From Blastocatellia bacterium (GTDB lineage Bacteria; Acidobacteriota; Blastocatellia; RBC074), in the NCBI GenBank assembly GCA_016789725.1, contig JAEUQN010000005.1, positions 1 to 64,000 on the forward strand: a stretch of DNA of 64,000 nt, read 5' to 3'. Numbering within the stretch: position 1 is the first letter of the stretch; each line of letters opens with the position of its first letter. The notes under the pieces were generated by a model. It saw only the letters and a list, made by a program, of their open reading frames with translations. It was not told the DNA's origin and ran no database searches. This document shows positions 2,374 to 32,862 of this stretch, piece after piece. A program made the translations under genes and the position numbers.

Positions 2374-3684
2374 ATGAAAGTTCTTCACGTTCTTGATCAC
2401 TCACTACCCTATCTGAGCGCGTATAGCTTTCGGAGTATGTATCTAATCTCGCAACAGCGCCAAATGGGAATTACGCCAGTGGTGCTCACCTCACCGAGCC
2501 ATGAAAGCTTTGATGAAAATTGCGAGATTCTGCAAGGCGTCCAGCATCATCGCTCCAAATGGGCAGATTTTTACTACCTACCTCAACCACGATTCATTCC
2601 CGGCTTGCGATATGAAGCTTATATTGCCGCCCTCGCCAAGCGGATTGTCCAGGTTGCGCGCGATGCCGACGTAGATTTGATTCACGCGCATTCGCCCGCA
2701 CTCAATGGACTTGCCACTCGTCGTGCGGCAAAGCAATTGAAGAAACCCTGGATTTACGAGTTGAGATATTATGAGCAGGACGCGGCGGTGGATAGCGGGC
2801 AAACCAGTTATTACTCAATTCGCTATAACCTGGCCCGATGGATGGAAGAACGTGTTTTGAGGCAGGCTGATTTGGCTATCACCACTTCGACTTCGATGCA
2901 GAAAGAATTGCTGGCACGCGGTTTCAGCTCACGCAAATTACTGGAAGTGCCAGAAGGCGTAGATACGCGTATGTTTCATCCGCGCTTGCCGGATGCCGAG
3001 TTGATCGAACGCCACCATCTCAAAGGCAAAACGGTGATTGGATTCATCGGATCTTTCTATAAATACGAAGGGCTGGATCGCCTGATAGGGGGGATGAGCT
3101 ATTTGCTACGCGAACGGCGCGACCTCAAGCTTATCCTGGCAGGTTCGGGCGAAGTGGAATCGCAATTGCGCGCCCGTGTTCCGCGTGAATGGAACGATCA
3201 TTTCATTTTCACAGGACGTATCGAGCAGGAAGATATTTTGCGATATTACTCGGTCATAGACATTTGCGTGTATCCGCGCCTGAGTACGCGGATGACCGAG
3301 TTGACGACGCCAATCCGACCGCTGGAAGCCATGTCTATGGAACGCGCCGTGATTGGCAGTAATGTGGGCGGTATTGCGGAATTGATTCGTCACAATAAAA
3401 CCGGCTTCGTCGTTGAGACCGATGACAAAGTGGCCCTGGGAGCTTCGATTTCACATCTTGTAAACAACCCCCACGAGCGAAAAGAGATGGGCAAGCGTGC
3501 GCGCGCACAGATTGTCAAGCAGCGAGAATGGGCGACTATTGCGCTCAAATATTCTGACATTTATGAACGTGTTGTCTCGGTGAAAAGCACGCGGTTGCTG
3601 ACCGGCATACAGGTTCCTGAGACGGAAAAGGAAAGGCCGACGTGGCAAGAAAGTCGGCCTTCTGAAAGCCAAACGAAGATTTGA
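2374..3684 (+). CDS. Exosortase A-associated GT4 glycosyltransferase
   Basis: GT-B fold glycosyltransferase of family 4, close to the PEP-CTERM/exosortase A-associated subgroup, expected to add a sugar in exopolysaccharide assembly at the inner membrane. Visible features are the N-terminal MKVLHVLDHSLPYLSAYSFR, characteristic of the subgroup; the PEGVDTRMF loop; GFIGSFYKYEGLDRLI opening the second Rossmann domain; and the EX7E donor site within PLEAMSMERAVIGSNVGGI near residue 320. Length 436 aa is typical. The last 25 residues (PETEKERPTWQESRPSESQ) are polar and probably disordered. It lies 108 bp after the FemAB gene in the same direction. Confidence 0.9.
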   Translation: MKVLHVLDHSLPYLSAYSFRSMYLISQQRQMGITPVVLTSPSHESFDENCEILQGVQHHRSKWADFYYLPQPRFIPGLRYEAYIAALAKRIVQVARDADVDLIHAHSPALNGLATRRAAKQLKKPWIYELRYYEQDAAVDSGQTSYYSIRYNLARWMEERVLRQADLAITTSTSMQKELLARGFSSRKLLEVPEGVDTRMFHPRLPDAELIERHHLKGKTVIGFIGSFYKYEGLDRLIGGMSYLLRERRDLKLILAGSGEVESQLRARVPREWNDHFIFTGRIEQEDILRYYSVIDICVYPRLSTRMTELTTPIRPLEAMSMERAVIGSNVGGIAELIRHNKTGFVVETDDKVALGASISHLVNNPHERKEMGKRARAQIVKQREWATIALKYSDIYERVVSVKSTRLLTGIQVPETEKERPTWQESRPSESQTKI

Positions 3685-3749
3685 ATGCTTCTTGATAGAG
3701 GCGCGCGGGTGCTTCTGTCGAGAAGGGTTAGGAGCTATGAACTGTAATC

Positions 3750-4673
3750 ATGTCTGCGACCGCCATTGAAAAGGAAGCCAAACCGGATCCATTGCTCGCA
3801 ACTCCTCCTCCGCCCGAAACTGAAAGCCCTGAAGCCGAGTTGCGGAATGCTGTTGAGTGGAGCGATAGCATCATTTCTCACCTCAAGGAATTGACCCACC
3901 ATTGGGAATTACTACAGCTCACGACCCAACGCGAGTTGAAAATTCGCTACAAGCAAACTGCGCTCGGAGCCGTGTGGGCCGTCTTGCAACCGCTTTCCCT
4001 GATGTTAGTGTTCGGCATTTTCTTCTCGTATTTCGCTGGGATGAAAGGCGACACCGGAATGCCATACGCGCTGTTTTCGTACACGGGGTTGTTGGCGTGG
4101 ACGTTTTTCTCAACGGCGCTTTCGTTTGCCATTCCAAGCTTGATTACGAATTCCTACGTCATTACAAAAATCTACTTCCCACGTGAAATCGTACCGTTGT
4201 CATGCGTGCTGGCAGCGTTTGTTGATTTCCTGGTGGCGGCTGTGATTTTTGTGGGACTGCTGTTGTTTTACCATAATGAAATCACGATCAATTGGAACAT
4301 CTTTTTTGTGATTCCGTTGATGGCAATTCAATTGCTTTTCACCATTGGGGTCAGCTTTTTCCTCTCGGCGTTTACGGTACTCTATCGAGATGTGCGCTAT
4401 GCAATGCCATTGGTGATTCAAGTCTGGATGTTTGCAACGCCGATTTTATATTCTGCGACGAAGGTCAAAGAGAAAAGCGAAACACTGTACAGCCTGTATA
4501 TGACCTTGAATCCAATGGCTGTAATTATTGATAGCTATCGCAAGTGCATCATTCAGGGGCTGACCCCGGATTTGAAGTTTCTTGGAATTGCCGCCGCGAT
4601 TTCCATTTTGTTGGTGCTGGCGTCATACAAATATTTCAAGCACTTGGAGCGAGAATTCGCAGATTTAGTATAG
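3750..4673 (+). CDS. Wzm-type ABC-2 polysaccharide exporter permease
   Basis: Membrane component of an ABC transporter that moves a lipid-linked polysaccharide to the periplasm. After a Pro-rich cytoplasmic N-terminus of about 45 residues comes the conserved ELLQLTTQRELKIRYKQTALGAVWAVLQPL entry segment. Roughly six hydrophobic membrane segments follow, then LEREFADLV at the C-terminus, as is usual for Wzm/KpsM-like permeases. Length 307 aa fits. The matching ATPase follows about 100 bp downstream, separated by a heptad inverted repeat. AGGAG lies 15 bases before the ATG, a longer spacing than usual. Confidence 0.92.
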   Translation: MSATAIEKEAKPDPLLATPPPPETESPEAELRNAVEWSDSIISHLKELTHHWELLQLTTQRELKIRYKQTALGAVWAVLQPLSLMLVFGIFFSYFAGMKGDTGMPYALFSYTGLLAWTFFSTALSFAIPSLITNSYVITKIYFPREIVPLSCVLAAFVDFLVAAVIFVGLLLFYHNEITINWNIFFVIPLMAIQLLFTIGVSFFLSAFTVLYRDVRYAMPLVIQVWMFATPILYSATKVKEKSETLYSLYMTLNPMAVIIDSYRKCIIQGLTPDLKFLGIAAAISILLVLASYKYFKHLEREFADLV

Positions 4674-4775
4674 GTGTCAGGGGGCAGGTGTCGGGTGTTG
4701 GGGAAAGGCGAAGGCGCTTCCTGACACACAGTACCGGACACCTATACCGAGCACCTGACACCCGACACCTGTTTT
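4674..4775. repeat. Heptad inverted repeat filling the permease-ATPase gap
   Basis: Imperfect 7-base units (GTGTCAG, GGGGCAG, GTGTCGG, GTGTTGG) start directly after the TAG stop of the permease. A complementary arm (CTGACAC, CCGACAC, CTG) ends four bases before the ATG of the ATPase gene. The core arms at 4685-4698 and 4758-4771 are perfectly complementary over 14 bases. The element occupies the position where a ribosome-binding site would be expected. Confidence 0.8.
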
Positions 4776-6062
4776 ATGAGCATTGTTGTTTTAGATAAAG
4801 TTTCCAAGACATATCGCCTCAGTCGGCTTGGCTCGAAGTCCATTCGGGAAGAAATGGCCAGGATGATGAAAAACCTGTTGCCGAGTTCTAAAGGCCAGGC
4901 GGGCAGCGATGAATTTTACGCGCTGAAAGAAGTTGATCTTGCCATCGAACGCGGCGAAACAGTCGGCTTTATTGGCCCGAACGGTTCCGGCAAAAGCACG
5001 TTGCTGAAACTGCTGGCGCGTATCATTTATCCCAATCATGGCAAGATCATGGTCGGCGGCTCAGTTGCTTCATTGATTGAAGTCGGAGCGGGCTTTCACC
5101 CCGAATTGACGGGGCGCGAAAACATCTTTTTATACGGCTCAATTATGGGCATGAAGAAAGCTGAGGTCGTGAAGAAATTTGACCGCATCGTGGCTTTTTC
5201 CGAAATGGAGAAATTCATTGATACGCCGGTCAAGCGCTATTCATCGGGAATGTATGTACGGTTGGGGTTTGCCGTGGCCGCACACATCAACCCGGCGGTT
5301 TTATTGGTGGACGAAGTTCTGGCGGTTGGCGATGCAAACTTTCAAAGCAAATGCCAGCAGCGAATCGAAGAACTTCGACGCGGCGGGATGACGATTGCCT
5401 TTGTCTCTCACGATATGCCTGCGGTCGAACGCTTATGTGATCGTGTTGCATTTATCTCGAAAGGACAGCTCCGCGCGATTGGCAAACCGCAAGATGTCAT
5501 CAGTCTGTATTACAACGAAGTCCTCTTCGCAAAGAAATCCAGCACGCACTTAGCGCAAAACAACACGGGTTTAGCGATTGAATCAAAGACTTCGCTCTAT
5601 GGGCAAGAAGCGGAAATCCTGAGCGTGAAATTTTACAATGGCGATGGACAGGAAACTGACACTATTGCCATGGGCGAAAATTTGACGGTGCGCCTTCATT
5701 ACCGCACGTACACGCCAATAGACGACCCTGTCTTTGAGATGTTGTTTTATTCGCCGGATGATCGGCTCTATTCACATTTGACGACGGCGATCAATGGTGA
5801 GGCTATAAACTCTCTGCCTGACGAAGGTATGGTCGAATTTGATTGCCGCGAATTTGGCTTGTCTCCCGGCATCTACAAGATTGATGGCATCTTCAGCAAA
5901 CGCGGCTCAGTTGCGCCGTATGACTTGAAGCCGCGTCAATACATTCTCAAGGTTCTGCCCGGCAAATCGGTACGAGGGATGTTTTATATGCCGCAGCAGT
6001 GGCGTTTGCTGCCGCCGAATGAAACGATCAATGTGCAATCGGCGGACACGAATTTCGTTTAA
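4776..6062 (+). CDS. Wzt-type polysaccharide ABC exporter ATPase with glycan-binding C-domain
   Basis: ATP-hydrolysing subunit paired with the permease just upstream. The Walker A motif GPNGSGKST lies near residue 70, the signature region [12 protein letters not shown] near 160, the Walker [13 protein letters not shown] near 177, and the H-loop SHD shortly after. Residues from about 265 to 428 form a beta-rich extension ([28 protein letters not shown]) like the Wzt C-terminal domain, which in known systems recognises the modified end of the glycan before export. At 428 aa it has the length of Wzt proteins that carry this domain. Its start codon follows a heptad hairpin with no clear Shine-Dalgarno sequence. 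Confidence 0.93.
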
Positions 6063-28328: not shown

Positions 28329-29108
28329 ATGCTACTGGAAGGCAAAAACGGCCTGATTTTAGGCGTTGCTAACAAAGCCAGCATTGCCTGGGCCATTGCA
28401 CAATCGTGCGCGCAAGCAGGCGCAAAACTCGCGTTCAACTATCAAACCGAGCGGTTGAAAGAAAACGTCGAAGACCTTGCCGCGACGATTCCTGACGCGA
28501 AATGCTATCAATGTGATGCGGGCAATGACGAAGAAATTACGGCCCTGATGAACAGCTTTGCCGGAGAGTACGGCAAGCTGGATTTTCTGGTGCATTCCAT
28601 TGCTTACGCCCCGCGCGAAGCGTTGACTGGCGAATTTATCAACACGACGCGCGATGATTTCAAAGTCGCTCTTGAAGTCAGCGCCTATTCGCTCGTCGCC
28701 TTCACCCGCGCCGCGCTGCCGATTATGAACGAAGGCGGTTCGATCATTACGCTCACATATCTCGGCGCAGAACGTGTCGTGCCGCATTACAATGTGATGG
28801 GTGTTGCCAAAGCCGCACTGGAATCTACCGTTCGTTATCTTGCCAGTGACCTTGGCCCGAAAGGCATCCGCGTCAACGCCATCTCCGCTGGCCCAATTCG
28901 TACGCTCGCGGCGCGCGGCGTGTCCGGCATCACAAACATGGTTGCGCATCACCGCGAAGTTGCACCACTGCGCAAAGCTACTGAACAAGCCGAAGTCGGC
29001 GACACCGGATTGTTTTTGGTCAGTAGCCTGTCGCGTGGCATCACGGGTGAAGTGATTTACGTGGATGGCGGCTACCATATTTTGGGAACGCTCGCGCCGA
29101 TGGGCTAA
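28329..29108 (+). CDS. fabI: Enoyl-[acyl-carrier-protein] reductase (NADH)
   Basis: Final reduction of each fatty-acid elongation cycle; triclosan target family. GLILGVANKASIAWAIAQ is the atypical FabI nucleotide-binding loop. LVHSIAYAPREAL, the catalytic pair in YNVMGVAKAALE and the ISAGPIRTLAARG motif are intact. Length 259 aa fits. CGAGGAG is well spaced upstream. It is a single-gene unit, 234 bp from the divergent peptidase. Confidence 0.97.
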   Translation: MLLEGKNGLILGVANKASIAWAIAQSCAQAGAKLAFNYQTERLKENVEDLAATIPDAKCYQCDAGNDEEITALMNSFAGEYGKLDFLVHSIAYAPREALTGEFINTTRDDFKVALEVSAYSLVAFTRAALPIMNEGGSIITLTYLGAERVVPHYNVMGVAKAALESTVRYLASDLGPKGIRVNAISAGPIRTLAARGVSGITNMVAHHREVAPLRKATEQAEVGDTGLFLVSSLSRGITGEVIYVDGGYHILGTLAPMG

Positions 29109-29162: not shown

Positions 29163-30275
29163 TCAATGACAAATCCAACTTACCTCATGCGCTTCCGTCA
29201 CATCCGGCACTTCCCATCGCATCAGCAATTTTTGAATCACTGAAGTCGGCACACTGGATGCACGTTCTGTGTTTTGTGCCCACAAATTCTTTTCCGACGT
29301 TTCCAGATACACAATCCGAATTTTGGCGTTGTACGCCGCGCACAAGCCCAAACAATGCTCGCGCATTTGTCGGCTCAGATTCGTCGCATTCCAGATGAAA
29401 TTTTGTTTGCGGCGTAAATACTCTCGCGCCATCTCCCGTGCGCGGACAACAACTGCGCCTTGATTGTCGGTCGGTTTGATCTTCATTTCTTCGCGCAGAG
29501 CGTCCAGTGAAATCACAGGCCAGTCAGGGCCGTTTGTTTTGATCCAATGATCTTTGCCTGCGCCGGGCAAGCCAGACATCACGATCACTTCGCTGCCCGT
29601 GTCATCAAAGGCCAGATAATTGGGATCGCGGTCTTCTTTTTGGAAATATAAAAAGCGGCTGTGATCGCTGGGGAAGGCACGCGGCGTTGTCAGGCATTCC
29701 TGCTCTTCGGCATAGTTCGCAAACAGCGCAATGTTGTCCAATAGCCGTTGCTGATCGGCACAAATGCGCCCGCGCGCATCGGCTTCGGTCACTTGCGCCA
29801 ACCAGTCGCAACGTGTCGTTTGGCTGACCTCAAACAATTTGCGCTGTGCGTTCGGGCGCTCAATCAGGAAGAACGGAATTTGATGATAACGAATCAGATT
29901 CACGATTTTCTCGCGTAACAGCAAAGGAATTTCCATGCGCCACAAAATCTCGCGCGCCATAATTTCGCCGCGTTTGGAGTGGCCGCGACTCGTGATGCGA
30001 CCGTCCTCAACGCGCGTGCAAACAGGCTTCGCTACGTCATGCATCAACGCTGCCACAAACACGATGGCGCGATCCTCAGCAGGCAAAACGCGCCAGGCTT
30101 CATTGGCAATGACCGCTTCGCAAACCATCCGCGTGTGAATCCAAACGTCGCCTTCCGCGTGATGTATTGGTTCCTGCGCGCAACCCTGCATCACGCGAAT
30201 CCACGCGAATTCGTTGTGCAGCGATTGCCAATTGAATTCATAATTTGGTTGTTGCGGAAGATGCGGGAAATTCAT
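29163..30275 (-). CDS. HD-Pnk-type RNA end-healing enzyme (HD phosphoesterase + polynucleotide kinase)
   Basis: Two-domain protein. Residues 35-195 form an HD domain (His pair near 38-39, ALMHDVAKP near 77-83, SRGHSKRG near 97-102, RYHQIP near 129-134). Residues 228-370 form a P-loop polynucleotide kinase (VIVMSGLPGAGKDHW near 230-244, acceptor Asp in ISLDALREEM near 258, NATNLSRQMR near 297-305). This order matches the bifunctional HD-Pnk enzymes known from bacteria such as Runella, in which the HD part removes 2',3'-cyclic or 3'-phosphates and the kinase phosphorylates 5'-OH ends. It overlaps the RNA ligase gene by four bases, giving healing and sealing activities in one operon. Confidence 0.87.
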   Translation of the reverse strand: MNFPHLPQQPNYEFNWQSLHNEFAWIRVMQGCAQEPIHHAEGDVWIHTRMVCEAVIANEAWRVLPAEDRAIVFVAALMHDVAKPVCTRVEDGRITSRGHSKRGEIMAREILWRMEIPLLLREKIVNLIRYHQIPFFLIERPNAQRKLFEVSQTTRCDWLAQVTEADARGRICADQQRLLDNIALFANYAEEQECLTTPRAFPSDHSRFLYFQKEDRDPNYLAFDDTGSEVIVMSGLPGAGKDHWIKTNGPDWPVISLDALREEMKIKPTDNQGAVVVRAREMAREYLRRKQNFIWNATNLSRQMREHCLGLCAAYNAKIRIVYLETSEKNLWAQNTERASSVPTSVIQKLLMRWEVPDVTEAHEVSWICH

Positions 30276-31057
30276 GCGAAAATATCAACGTCTGCGTGCA
30301 AGCGATTCGGCAAAATCGGGCGATCCATCCAATGGCTGCCGGAATCAACGACGGCTTGTAAAAATTCGGCGCGGACAAACTTATACCGCTCAACCACACG
30401 CCCGTCTTCTTCGACTTTGATGTACAGCCCTTCGGCCAAATCCGCATTGTCCGTTTGCTTTCTAACCAACTCCAGATTTTGTTTTTGTTCGTTGCAGGCA
30501 AGCGCGAGGTTTTCGCGCCATTGCGCGCTTTTATACAATGAAGTCGTCAACAACGATTGCAAATGCTCAAGCGAGGTCGCAATGCCCTGCCACAACACAG
30601 GAACCGAAATCAGCGGCGAATCTTTGAGCAATAAATGCCTTCTTTCGGTGGACAAAAACTCGCCGTTGCTCACGTCCAGAAGATCAAATTCAAAAAAGTA
30701 ATGCGGTAGCGCGTCATAGAAAATTGTGTGCTTCGCATAGACCCATTCGCCGTACATCACATACCGATTTTCCAACAACTCGTGTAGCGTTTGTTGTTTC
30801 GCGCGCGCCCAGGTTTTGAGCCAGGCAAATTGCCGTTCACGCGCGCCGCCATCCAAAAAGTGTCCGCGACTTTGCAGCAGCAATCTGCCGTCATTGTCAA
30901 AGCTGATGCCGGAGTTTGCGCCGTCCAATTTTTCTTCGACGACGATGAAGCGGCCTTTGATTTGGCTGAATGAAACGGATTCCAAATCCTCATCGCCAAC
31001 CTGCAACCGCGAGCCTTCAATATGTGGCGTGCGTGGGTATTTGTAGAGCTTCGTCAT
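30272..31057 (-). CDS. ATP-dependent RNA ligase (Rnl2-like)
   Basis: Covalent nucleotidyltransferase that should seal RNA ends with 3'-OH and 5'-phosphate. All core motifs are present: motif I EKLDGAN with nucleophile Lys43, motif III YGEWVYAKH near 102-110, motif IIIa FFEFDLLD near 121-128, motif IV AEGLYIKVE near 208-216, and motif V RYKFVR with Lys near 226. At 261 aa it is a compact ligase without an obvious additional C-terminal domain. It starts six bases after the methyltransferase stop and overlaps the HD-Pnk gene by four bases, so the three are translated together. Confidence 0.9.
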   Translation of the reverse strand: MTKLYKYPRTPHIEGSRLQVGDEDLESVSFSQIKGRFIVVEEKLDGANSGISFDNDGRLLLQSRGHFLDGGARERQFAWLKTWARAKQQTLHELLENRYVMYGEWVYAKHTIFYDALPHYFFEFDLLDVSNGEFLSTERRHLLLKDSPLISVPVLWQGIATSLEHLQSLLTTSLYKSAQWRENLALACNEQKQNLELVRKQTDNADLAEGLYIKVEEDGRVVERYKFVRAEFLQAVVDSGSHWMDRPILPNRLHADVDIFA

Positions 31058-31063
31058 CGCAAC

Positions 31064-31720
31064 TCAAACCTTTACAACGGCAATCATGTGGTTCAAGACG
31101 TAATCTATTTTGACACTGGTCGCACCCGCTTCCAGCCATAGATTTTCAAACGACGAAGGATCGAAAAGCTGGACATGTTCGGGGTTATCGTCTTCTTTCG
31201 AGGGAACGGAAGCCACCACAAAAGACCGCGCCAATCGCACCACTTCTGCTGCCGCCAAAGCCGGTGTTTCCAAATGCTCCAGCACTTCCAATGCCGTCAC
31301 GACATCTACACATTTGTCTTCCAATTCGATGGCCGTCGCGTCCATTTCGAGGGCTTGTAAATTCGTAAATCCGCCTTGTCGCACCGCATTGATGTCCGCG
31401 ACACGAACCGGATTCGTATCAATTGCAGTGACTTCCAGATATGGGAACGCATCCAACAACGGCCAAAGAAATGTGCCGCGCCCGCTGCCGATGTCGAGCA
31501 AGCTTGTTGGGGCAAGGCTGCGCAAAATCCCCAACACTTTTTTGACACGCGGAAGTTCCGTTTGATTTTTGAATTTATGCAGGCGCAATCCTGCCGCGCG
31601 CCCGGCGACGATGATCTCCTCATCTGACAACTCTGGGGCAAGCGTCATTTTGCCCCGGACAAAAGCTGCTGCCAGAGGGACAAAATACCGTTCATCAATA
31701 CATTCAGGCTGATCTGTCAT
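31064..31720 (-). CDS. SAM-dependent methyltransferase of the RNA-repair operon
   Basis: Class I Rossmann methyltransferase: motif I SLLDIGSGRGTFLWPLL near 73-90, acidic residue in VTAIDTNP near 101, and a post-I region DVVTALEVLEHLE near 139-151. Together with PEHVQLF near 180-186 the EVLEH stretch offers an Glu-x2-Glu-His plus His set like that of Hen1 3'-terminal RNA 2'-O-methyltransferases. The same stretch also occurs in generic methyltransferases, so specificity is open. The ATG at 31720 gives 218 aa; an extension to 31864 would run into the divergent ispE promoter. It is the first gene of the operon with ligase and HD-Pnk. Confidence 0.8.
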   Translation of the reverse strand: MTDQPECIDERYFVPLAAAFVRGKMTLAPELSDEEIIVAGRAAGLRLHKFKNQTELPRVKKVLGILRSLAPTSLLDIGSGRGTFLWPLLDAFPYLEVTAIDTNPVRVADINAVRQGGFTNLQALEMDATAIELEDKCVDVVTALEVLEHLETPALAAAEVVRLARSFVVASVPSKEDDNPEHVQLFDPSSFENLWLEAGATSVKIDYVLNHMIAVVKV

Positions 31721-31835
31721 GACCTTTTCAAGTCTTTGTTTTTCTCGTAACTCAAGGAAGCGGCATTTTAGTGTAAGATGCGTTTTCTTCGAGCAAAAAT
31801 TTGGTATTACCCTTGCTCTCAAGTTGAATGGGTCT

Positions 31836-32786: not shown

Positions 32787-32862
<76 letters not shown>

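Follow-up and report, generated by a model that had tools for sequence, protein, structure and literature searches.

Three minus-strand genes, encoding a methyltransferase (MTase), an RNA ligase and an HD-Pnk in this order, form a putative RNA-repair operon at positions 29163-31720 of the window, by which we mean the whole 64,000-nucleotide stretch of DNA analyzed here. The genes and features are listed below in the direction of transcription, with what each assignment is based on in brackets.

31721..31835, no strand assigned: divergent intergenic region towards ispE, presumed operon promoter (ORF positions).
31064..31720, minus strand: first gene, class I SAM-dependent MTase, 218 aa (Pfam, AlphaFold2 model, family alignment).
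31175..31288, minus strand: E145-x-x-E148-H149 ... H182 quartet of the MTase, candidate metal site of an O-methyltransferase (invariant in 15/15 members).
31058..31063, minus strand: 6-nt gap from the stop codon of the MTase to the ATG of the ligase (sequence).
30272..31057, minus strand: ATP-type RNA ligase, nucleotidyltransferase core only, 261 aa (PF09414).
30929..30931, minus strand: predicted adenylylated lysine K43 of the ligase, motif I EEKLDGAN (invariant in relatives; homologous to K40 of DRB0100, PMC1997131).
30272..30275, minus strand: ATGA overlap of the ligase stop and the HD-Pnk start (sequence).
29163..30275, minus strand: HD-Pnk, N-terminal HD phosphoesterase and C-terminal 5'-OH polynucleotide kinase, 370 aa (Pfam HD and AAA_33, alignment with DRB0098 and 18 others).
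29871..30137, minus strand: HD phosphoesterase domain, residues 47-135, with H47, H79-D80 and H99, D166 lying just beyond (Pfam HD, alignment).
29205..29588, minus strand: P-loop kinase domain, with G235..G240-K241, D258xxR261 and R338 (Pfam, alignment).

The coordinates are exactly those of the initial annotation of this DNA, which had the genes overlapping or nearly touching, and Pfam confirmed the identities proposed there for all three genes, which are probably co-translated, judging from their spacing. The operon is self-contained, being convergent with fabI, which ends at 29108, and divergent from ispE, which starts at about 31836. Consensus scans of the operon for promoters and terminators gave no more matches than shuffled sequence did, and an Rfam search near the operon returned nothing except one tRNA gene (32788-32859), which sits between ispE and prs. 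No toxin or defense gene was recognized adjoining the operon within the window. When the operon was searched with PADLOC, the ligase and the HD-Pnk had no match and the MTase had a generic MTase match (mad2); because this was the sole match, we rejected a known defense system as the identity of the operon.

In the HD-Pnk, Pfam recognized an HD domain (1.9e-7) followed by an AAA_33 kinase (9e-23). A full-length alignment with DRB0098 of D. radiodurans and 18 other sequences showed that the metal ligands of the HD domain (H47, H79, D80, H99 and D166) and the GK, DxxR and lid arginine of the kinase (K241, D258, R261 and R338) are invariant, the motifs of both domains being kept as far as DRB0098. 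By its domain order and its predicted catalytic residues, the third gene product is a member of the HD-Pnk family. The HD domain resembles that of tRNA CCA-adding enzymes, and the kinase resembles T4-type Pnk. In the Walker A motif of the kinase, the window HD-Pnk and its relatives mostly have GKD in place of GK[ST], while DRB0098 and one relative (L063) keep GKS. We also considered a Pnkp/Hen1 system as the identity of the operon and rejected it: the Pnkp model TIGR04075 matched the kinase part only, at 18.6 bits against a cut-off of 750, and the tripartite Pnkp with its calcineurin-like phosphatase was not found.

The ligase matched the Pfam family RNA_ligase (PF09414) with 127 bits against a cut-off of 27 (1e-36). 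Its motifs EEK43xDG, E104-W, E123xD125, E209-G-x-Y-x-K214 and R224xK226 are invariant across relatives, and the nucleotidyltransferase motifs I, III, IIIa, IV and V are all present, with K43, D45, G46, E104, E209, K214 and K226 invariant; no extra domain was recognized beyond this core. A Foldseek search with the structure model (pLDDT 88.8) placed Naegleria Rnl, T4 Rnl2 and archaeal Rnl3 on top and DNA ligases lower, with moderate TM-scores of about 0.5, and at this level of similarity the modeled fold is of the RNA-ligase type rather than the DNA-ligase type. HD, kinase and ligase domains are present with invariant catalytic motifs, in agreement with the full heal-and-seal set predicted by the initial annotation, and the families to which the HD-Pnk and the ligase belong point to healing and sealing activities.

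The DRB0098-0100 operon of D. radiodurans, already described as ligase, PARG macrodomain and HD-Pnk (PMC1997131, PMC11833690), encodes homologs of the window ligase (26% identity) and HD-Pnk (29%), and the order of these two genes (DRB0100-DRB0099-DRB0098) agrees with that in the window operon; both operons are sets of three overlapping genes, one of which encodes an end- or adduct-modifying enzyme. This enzyme is a PARG (PF10021) encoded between the ligase and the HD-Pnk in D. radiodurans, whereas it is an MTase encoded upstream of the ligase in the window. The D. radiodurans genes were first proposed to act on DNA, being induced by irradiation and encoding an HD-Pnk whose kinase phosphorylates DNA 5' ends (PMC1997131), and the window cassette might likewise repair DNA breaks, with the MTase as an unrelated neighbor. 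We consider this highly improbable: adenylylation of DRB0100 was shown, but it gave no DNA ligation with its partners, RNA ligation not being reported (PMC1997131), the fold of the window ligase is closest to RNA ligases, and the co-occurrence and co-divergence of the MTase, described below, speak against a bystander.

The MTase matched Methyltransf_11 in Pfam (8e-13) and also Methyltransf_12, Methyltransf_25 and Methyltransf_23; its AlphaFold2 model (pLDDT 91.9) has a class I Rossmann fold, and the 15 members of the family alignment share 35 invariant columns. The E-x-x-E-H...H quartet aligned with that of Hen1 in a 144-column profile alignment made with hhalign. It is not diagnostic of Hen1 because UbiG carries an equivalent quartet; similar patterns also occur in generic MTases, and in profile comparison UbiG scored 115 versus 96 for Hen1, the UbiG alignment covering a shorter stretch. 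What the quartet suggests is metal-dependent O-methylation, not RNA specificity. Membership in Hen1 was rejected, since the bacter_Hen1 model TIGR04074 gave 23.9 bits against a cut-off of 340, over the MTase domain only, and the N-terminal ligase-activating region is missing; the same model weakly matched 10 of the 15 relatives. The best curated (NCBIfam) match was the sugar MTase MftM (NF041255), found below its cut-off for all 15 relatives, and this identity was also rejected at 65 bits against a cut-off of 200. Foldseek against the PDB returned generic class I small-molecule and RNA MTases and no clear relative.

A possible role of the MTase within a repair set is to methylate a base or a distal site, for example by restoring or pre-installing a modification in the anticodon loop or in rRNA that keeps the nuclease from cutting. 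In several libraries the MTase showed weak similarity to tRNA MTases (CmoB, TrmB, phrog_4752 and METTL6), which is consistent with such a role, as are a conserved C-terminal VLNH-type motif and an N-terminal helical part that are the family's own and lie outside the Hen1 alignment. On the other hand, the metal-ligand quartet favors hydroxyl methylation, and no base-modifying family matched above its cut-off, and we regard methylation of a base or a distal site as unlikely.

A scan with the ligase alignment, taking one genome per species, yielded 503 relatives, the best 80 of which were analyzed. The HD-Pnk gene lies downstream of the ligase gene in 79 of these 80 loci; the exception, L116, apparently belongs to the same genome as G073 (see below), in which the HD-Pnk gene is found elsewhere. 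In 12 of the 80 loci the gene just before that of the ligase encodes a homolog of the MTase (40-63% identity); these homologs form a single cluster, and the MTase is the sole upstream gene that recurs across phyla among the best 80 of the 503 relatives. By phylum, again among the 80, it is present in Planctomycetota (3/3), Myxococcota (3/7), Bacillota (3/11), Pseudomonadota (2/12) and Acidobacteriota (1/2), and absent from Actinomycetota (0/39) and Cyanobacteriota (0/4). Together with the window, two loci from Acidobacteriota and another two from Myxococcota, these 12 loci make up 17 triads, whose MTases form a distinct family (39-63% identical) and whose gene order and strand are the same in 17/17 loci from five bacterial phyla. 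The initial annotation had made its reading depend on conservation of the MTase beside the ligase and HD-Pnk, which was borne out in these triads, though only 12 of the 80 loci have an adjoining MTase. Antisense shadow frames aside, no further gene in the flanks is common to more than two of the 17 loci, and the arrangement exceeds what chance would give. Canonical Hen1 was found above the cut-off in 1 of 18 triad genomes.

In whole genomes, the full-length MTase was confined to genomes with a close ligase: among 396 Acidobacteriota genomes, it was found (>300 bits, next best 57) in exactly the 4 that have such a ligase, and full-length HD-Pnk was found in the same 4 and in one other genome (G375). 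The chance of this overlap would be ~1e-9 if the genomes were independent; they are related, so the value is nominal and not a true probability, though its direction agrees with the other surveys. In G073 all three genes are present on three separate contigs, the MTase gene lying beside response-regulator genes, implying that the set is kept without linkage. Among 47 genomes bearing the ligase/HD-Pnk pair, the MTase was detected only in the 12 with a copy adjoining the ligase, and at other sites in none of the 35 sampled pair-only genomes (0/35), and 229 Myxococcota genomes contained three MTases, all within triads. Apart from one remnant, no MTase was found in the examined genomes that have no ligase. 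This remnant, in G019 (L181:4790-5089, minus strand), is a 99-aa N-terminal piece (57 bits, 60% identical along 55 aa) and looks like decay; G019 has neither a close ligase nor an HD-Pnk. In Ruminococcus the intact MTase gene is directly preceded by a broken duplicate in tandem (G428:C62:54978-56383, the genome of L103).

Protein distances were correlated between MTase and ligase (r 0.58), between MTase and HD-Pnk (r 0.68) and between ligase and HD-Pnk (r 0.51), each with p 1e-4. With the co-occurrence and the dispersed genes of G073, this co-divergence led us to reject the MTase as a bystander, and a functional link among all three genes is very probable. Since most ligase/HD-Pnk pairs have no MTase, it is dispensable for repair; on the ligase tree its state changes seven times, at least three of the changes being forced by well-supported branches, showing that it was repeatedly lost or gained as an accessory. 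The MTase is thus an optional accessory of the HD-Pnk/Rnl cassette.

The distribution also bears on whether the trio serves breakage at all, because the three genes could form a constitutive unit for RNA processing or circularization. Such a unit would suit the housekeeping neighbors fabI and ispE and the surroundings in which no toxin or defense gene was recognized, and archaeal Rnl3 circularizes RNA (PMC12153264). However, the cassette is very patchily distributed, occurring in 1 of the 11 genomes of its own family and 4 of the 396 of the phylum, its relatives reside on plasmids and viral contigs, and an end-healing enzyme is needed only for cuts that leave 2',3'-cyclic-phosphate and 5'-OH ends. 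A constitutive processing unit therefore seems quite improbable to us.

The ligase/HD-Pnk pair itself is widespread and already known. It is also found on plasmids, and three viral (IMG/VR) contigs (L136, L137 and L142) carry the ligase and HD-Pnk genes without the MTase; a 462-kb phage (LR756500.1) encodes an HD-Pnk. A counter-defense role is possible for the viral-contig and phage copies. MTase relatives were searched for on viral contigs and plasmids, and none was found. A locus of Pseudobacteroides cellulosolvens (L120:4872-9826) encodes Thg1, the close ligase, another ligase of T4 Rnl2 type that has its C-terminal domain, HD-Pnk and TatD, where the Thg1 and the Rnl2-type ligase point to repair of tRNA or another RNA. 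On a Vibrio parahaemolyticus plasmid (L168:838-5161), a divergent HD-Pnk follows a 995-aa protein that has no Pfam match, with no recognized ligase nearby. Plasmids of Azotobacter, Aeromonas and Tistrella (L043, L044 and L045, about 3050-5700) carry tightly packed or overlapping genes for a DUF3696-type ATPase, a ~177-aa protein and a PF09414 RNA ligase. In L044 and L045 the ATPase matches the candidate defense protein HEC-03B and the ~177-aa protein matches HEC-03A; the ligase of this cassette has no PADLOC match and may be an unlisted partner of HEC-03.

HD-Pnk is reportedly often encoded in an operon with an ATP-dependent ligase, as Munir and Shuman are said to have noted in 2016 for Runella slithyformis HD-Pnk, which has the same architecture of HD and P-loop kinase domains as the window protein; these operons are not known to include an MTase. 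Among the general components of RNA-repair systems, Burroughs and Aravind (2016) reportedly listed methylases, and an MTase in RNA repair is therefore not a new idea in itself. The literature searched contained no account of an MTase accompanying HD-Pnk, an earlier mention in either of these two works being possible, and the cassette with its MTase partner appears to be an undescribed variant of HD-Pnk/Rnl repair. The initial annotation called the combination less described than Pnkp/Hen1 or RtcB/RtcA; its ligase/HD-Pnk pair is already described (PMC1997131, PMC11833690).

Among known systems, Pnkp/Hen1 and Pnkp1-Rnl-Hen1 combine kinase, phosphoesterase, ligase and SAM-dependent MTase as the window operon does, and in Pnkp1-Rnl-Hen1, whose ligase is a separate protein, the MTase is encoded at a distance from both partners, a situation comparable to that in G073 (PMC4411300). 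Both differ from the window set in having a calcineurin-like instead of an HD phosphoesterase and in their MTase, that of the window not being Hen1 and having no counterpart of Hen1's N-terminal ligase-activating region; a further difference is that no extra domain was recognized in the window ligase. The initial annotation described the healing and sealing proteins as unrelated to those of Pnkp/Hen1; this stands for the phosphoesterase, which differs in kind, but the kinase, a P-loop Pnk, is of the same kind as the Pnkp kinase, and the ligase shares its nucleotidyltransferase superfamily with Rnl2, Rnl3 and Rnl5. The T4 Pnkp/Rnl1 tRNA repair system shares the heal-and-seal logic, the P-loop kinase and the nucleotidyltransferase ligase, but has a HAD phosphatase and no MTase. 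RtcA/RtcB repairs the same kind of cut, but RtcB, an unrelated protein with no counterpart in the window operon, joins 3'-P directly to 5'-OH with GTP.

We lean towards an RNA-repair cassette whose MTase would mark the RNA at or near the break. An RNA cut would leave 2',3'-cyclic-phosphate and 5'-OH ends, both healed by HD-Pnk, its HD domain clearing the 3' phosphate and its kinase phosphorylating the 5' end. The ligase would charge itself with AMP on K43 and seal the 3'-OH to the 5'-PO4. The MTase, as an optional third component, would methylate the RNA at or beside the break before sealing, its likeliest chemistry being metal-dependent O-methylation of a ribose 2'-OH, as in Hen1, and the mended site, once methylated, would resist the same nuclease. 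Precedent for an MTase step between healing and sealing comes from Pnkp1-Rnl-Hen1, in which ligation was faster with SAM and the joined RNA was resistant to the ribotoxin (PMC4411300). Action of the MTase on the repaired RNA seems reasonably probable; the junction 2'-O as its target is less likely than not. It is more doubtful still that the protein is a hitherto undescribed enzyme, distinct from Hen1 and dedicated to HD-Pnk/Rnl repair, which adds a 2'-O-methyl to the 3' end of a nuclease-cut RNA before sealing.

Cassettes of HD-Pnk and ligase occur widely among bacteria, as well as on plasmids and some viral contigs, and a dedicated MTase whose occurrence follows that of the cassette offers a handle on them, as the site of methylation would show which RNA is repaired and where. 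Should the junction ribose prove to carry the mark, the combination of repair and immunity would have evolved at least twice, here using another kind of MTase and of phosphoesterase, and the cassette would be an independently evolved system of repair with immunity, convergent with Pnkp/Hen1.
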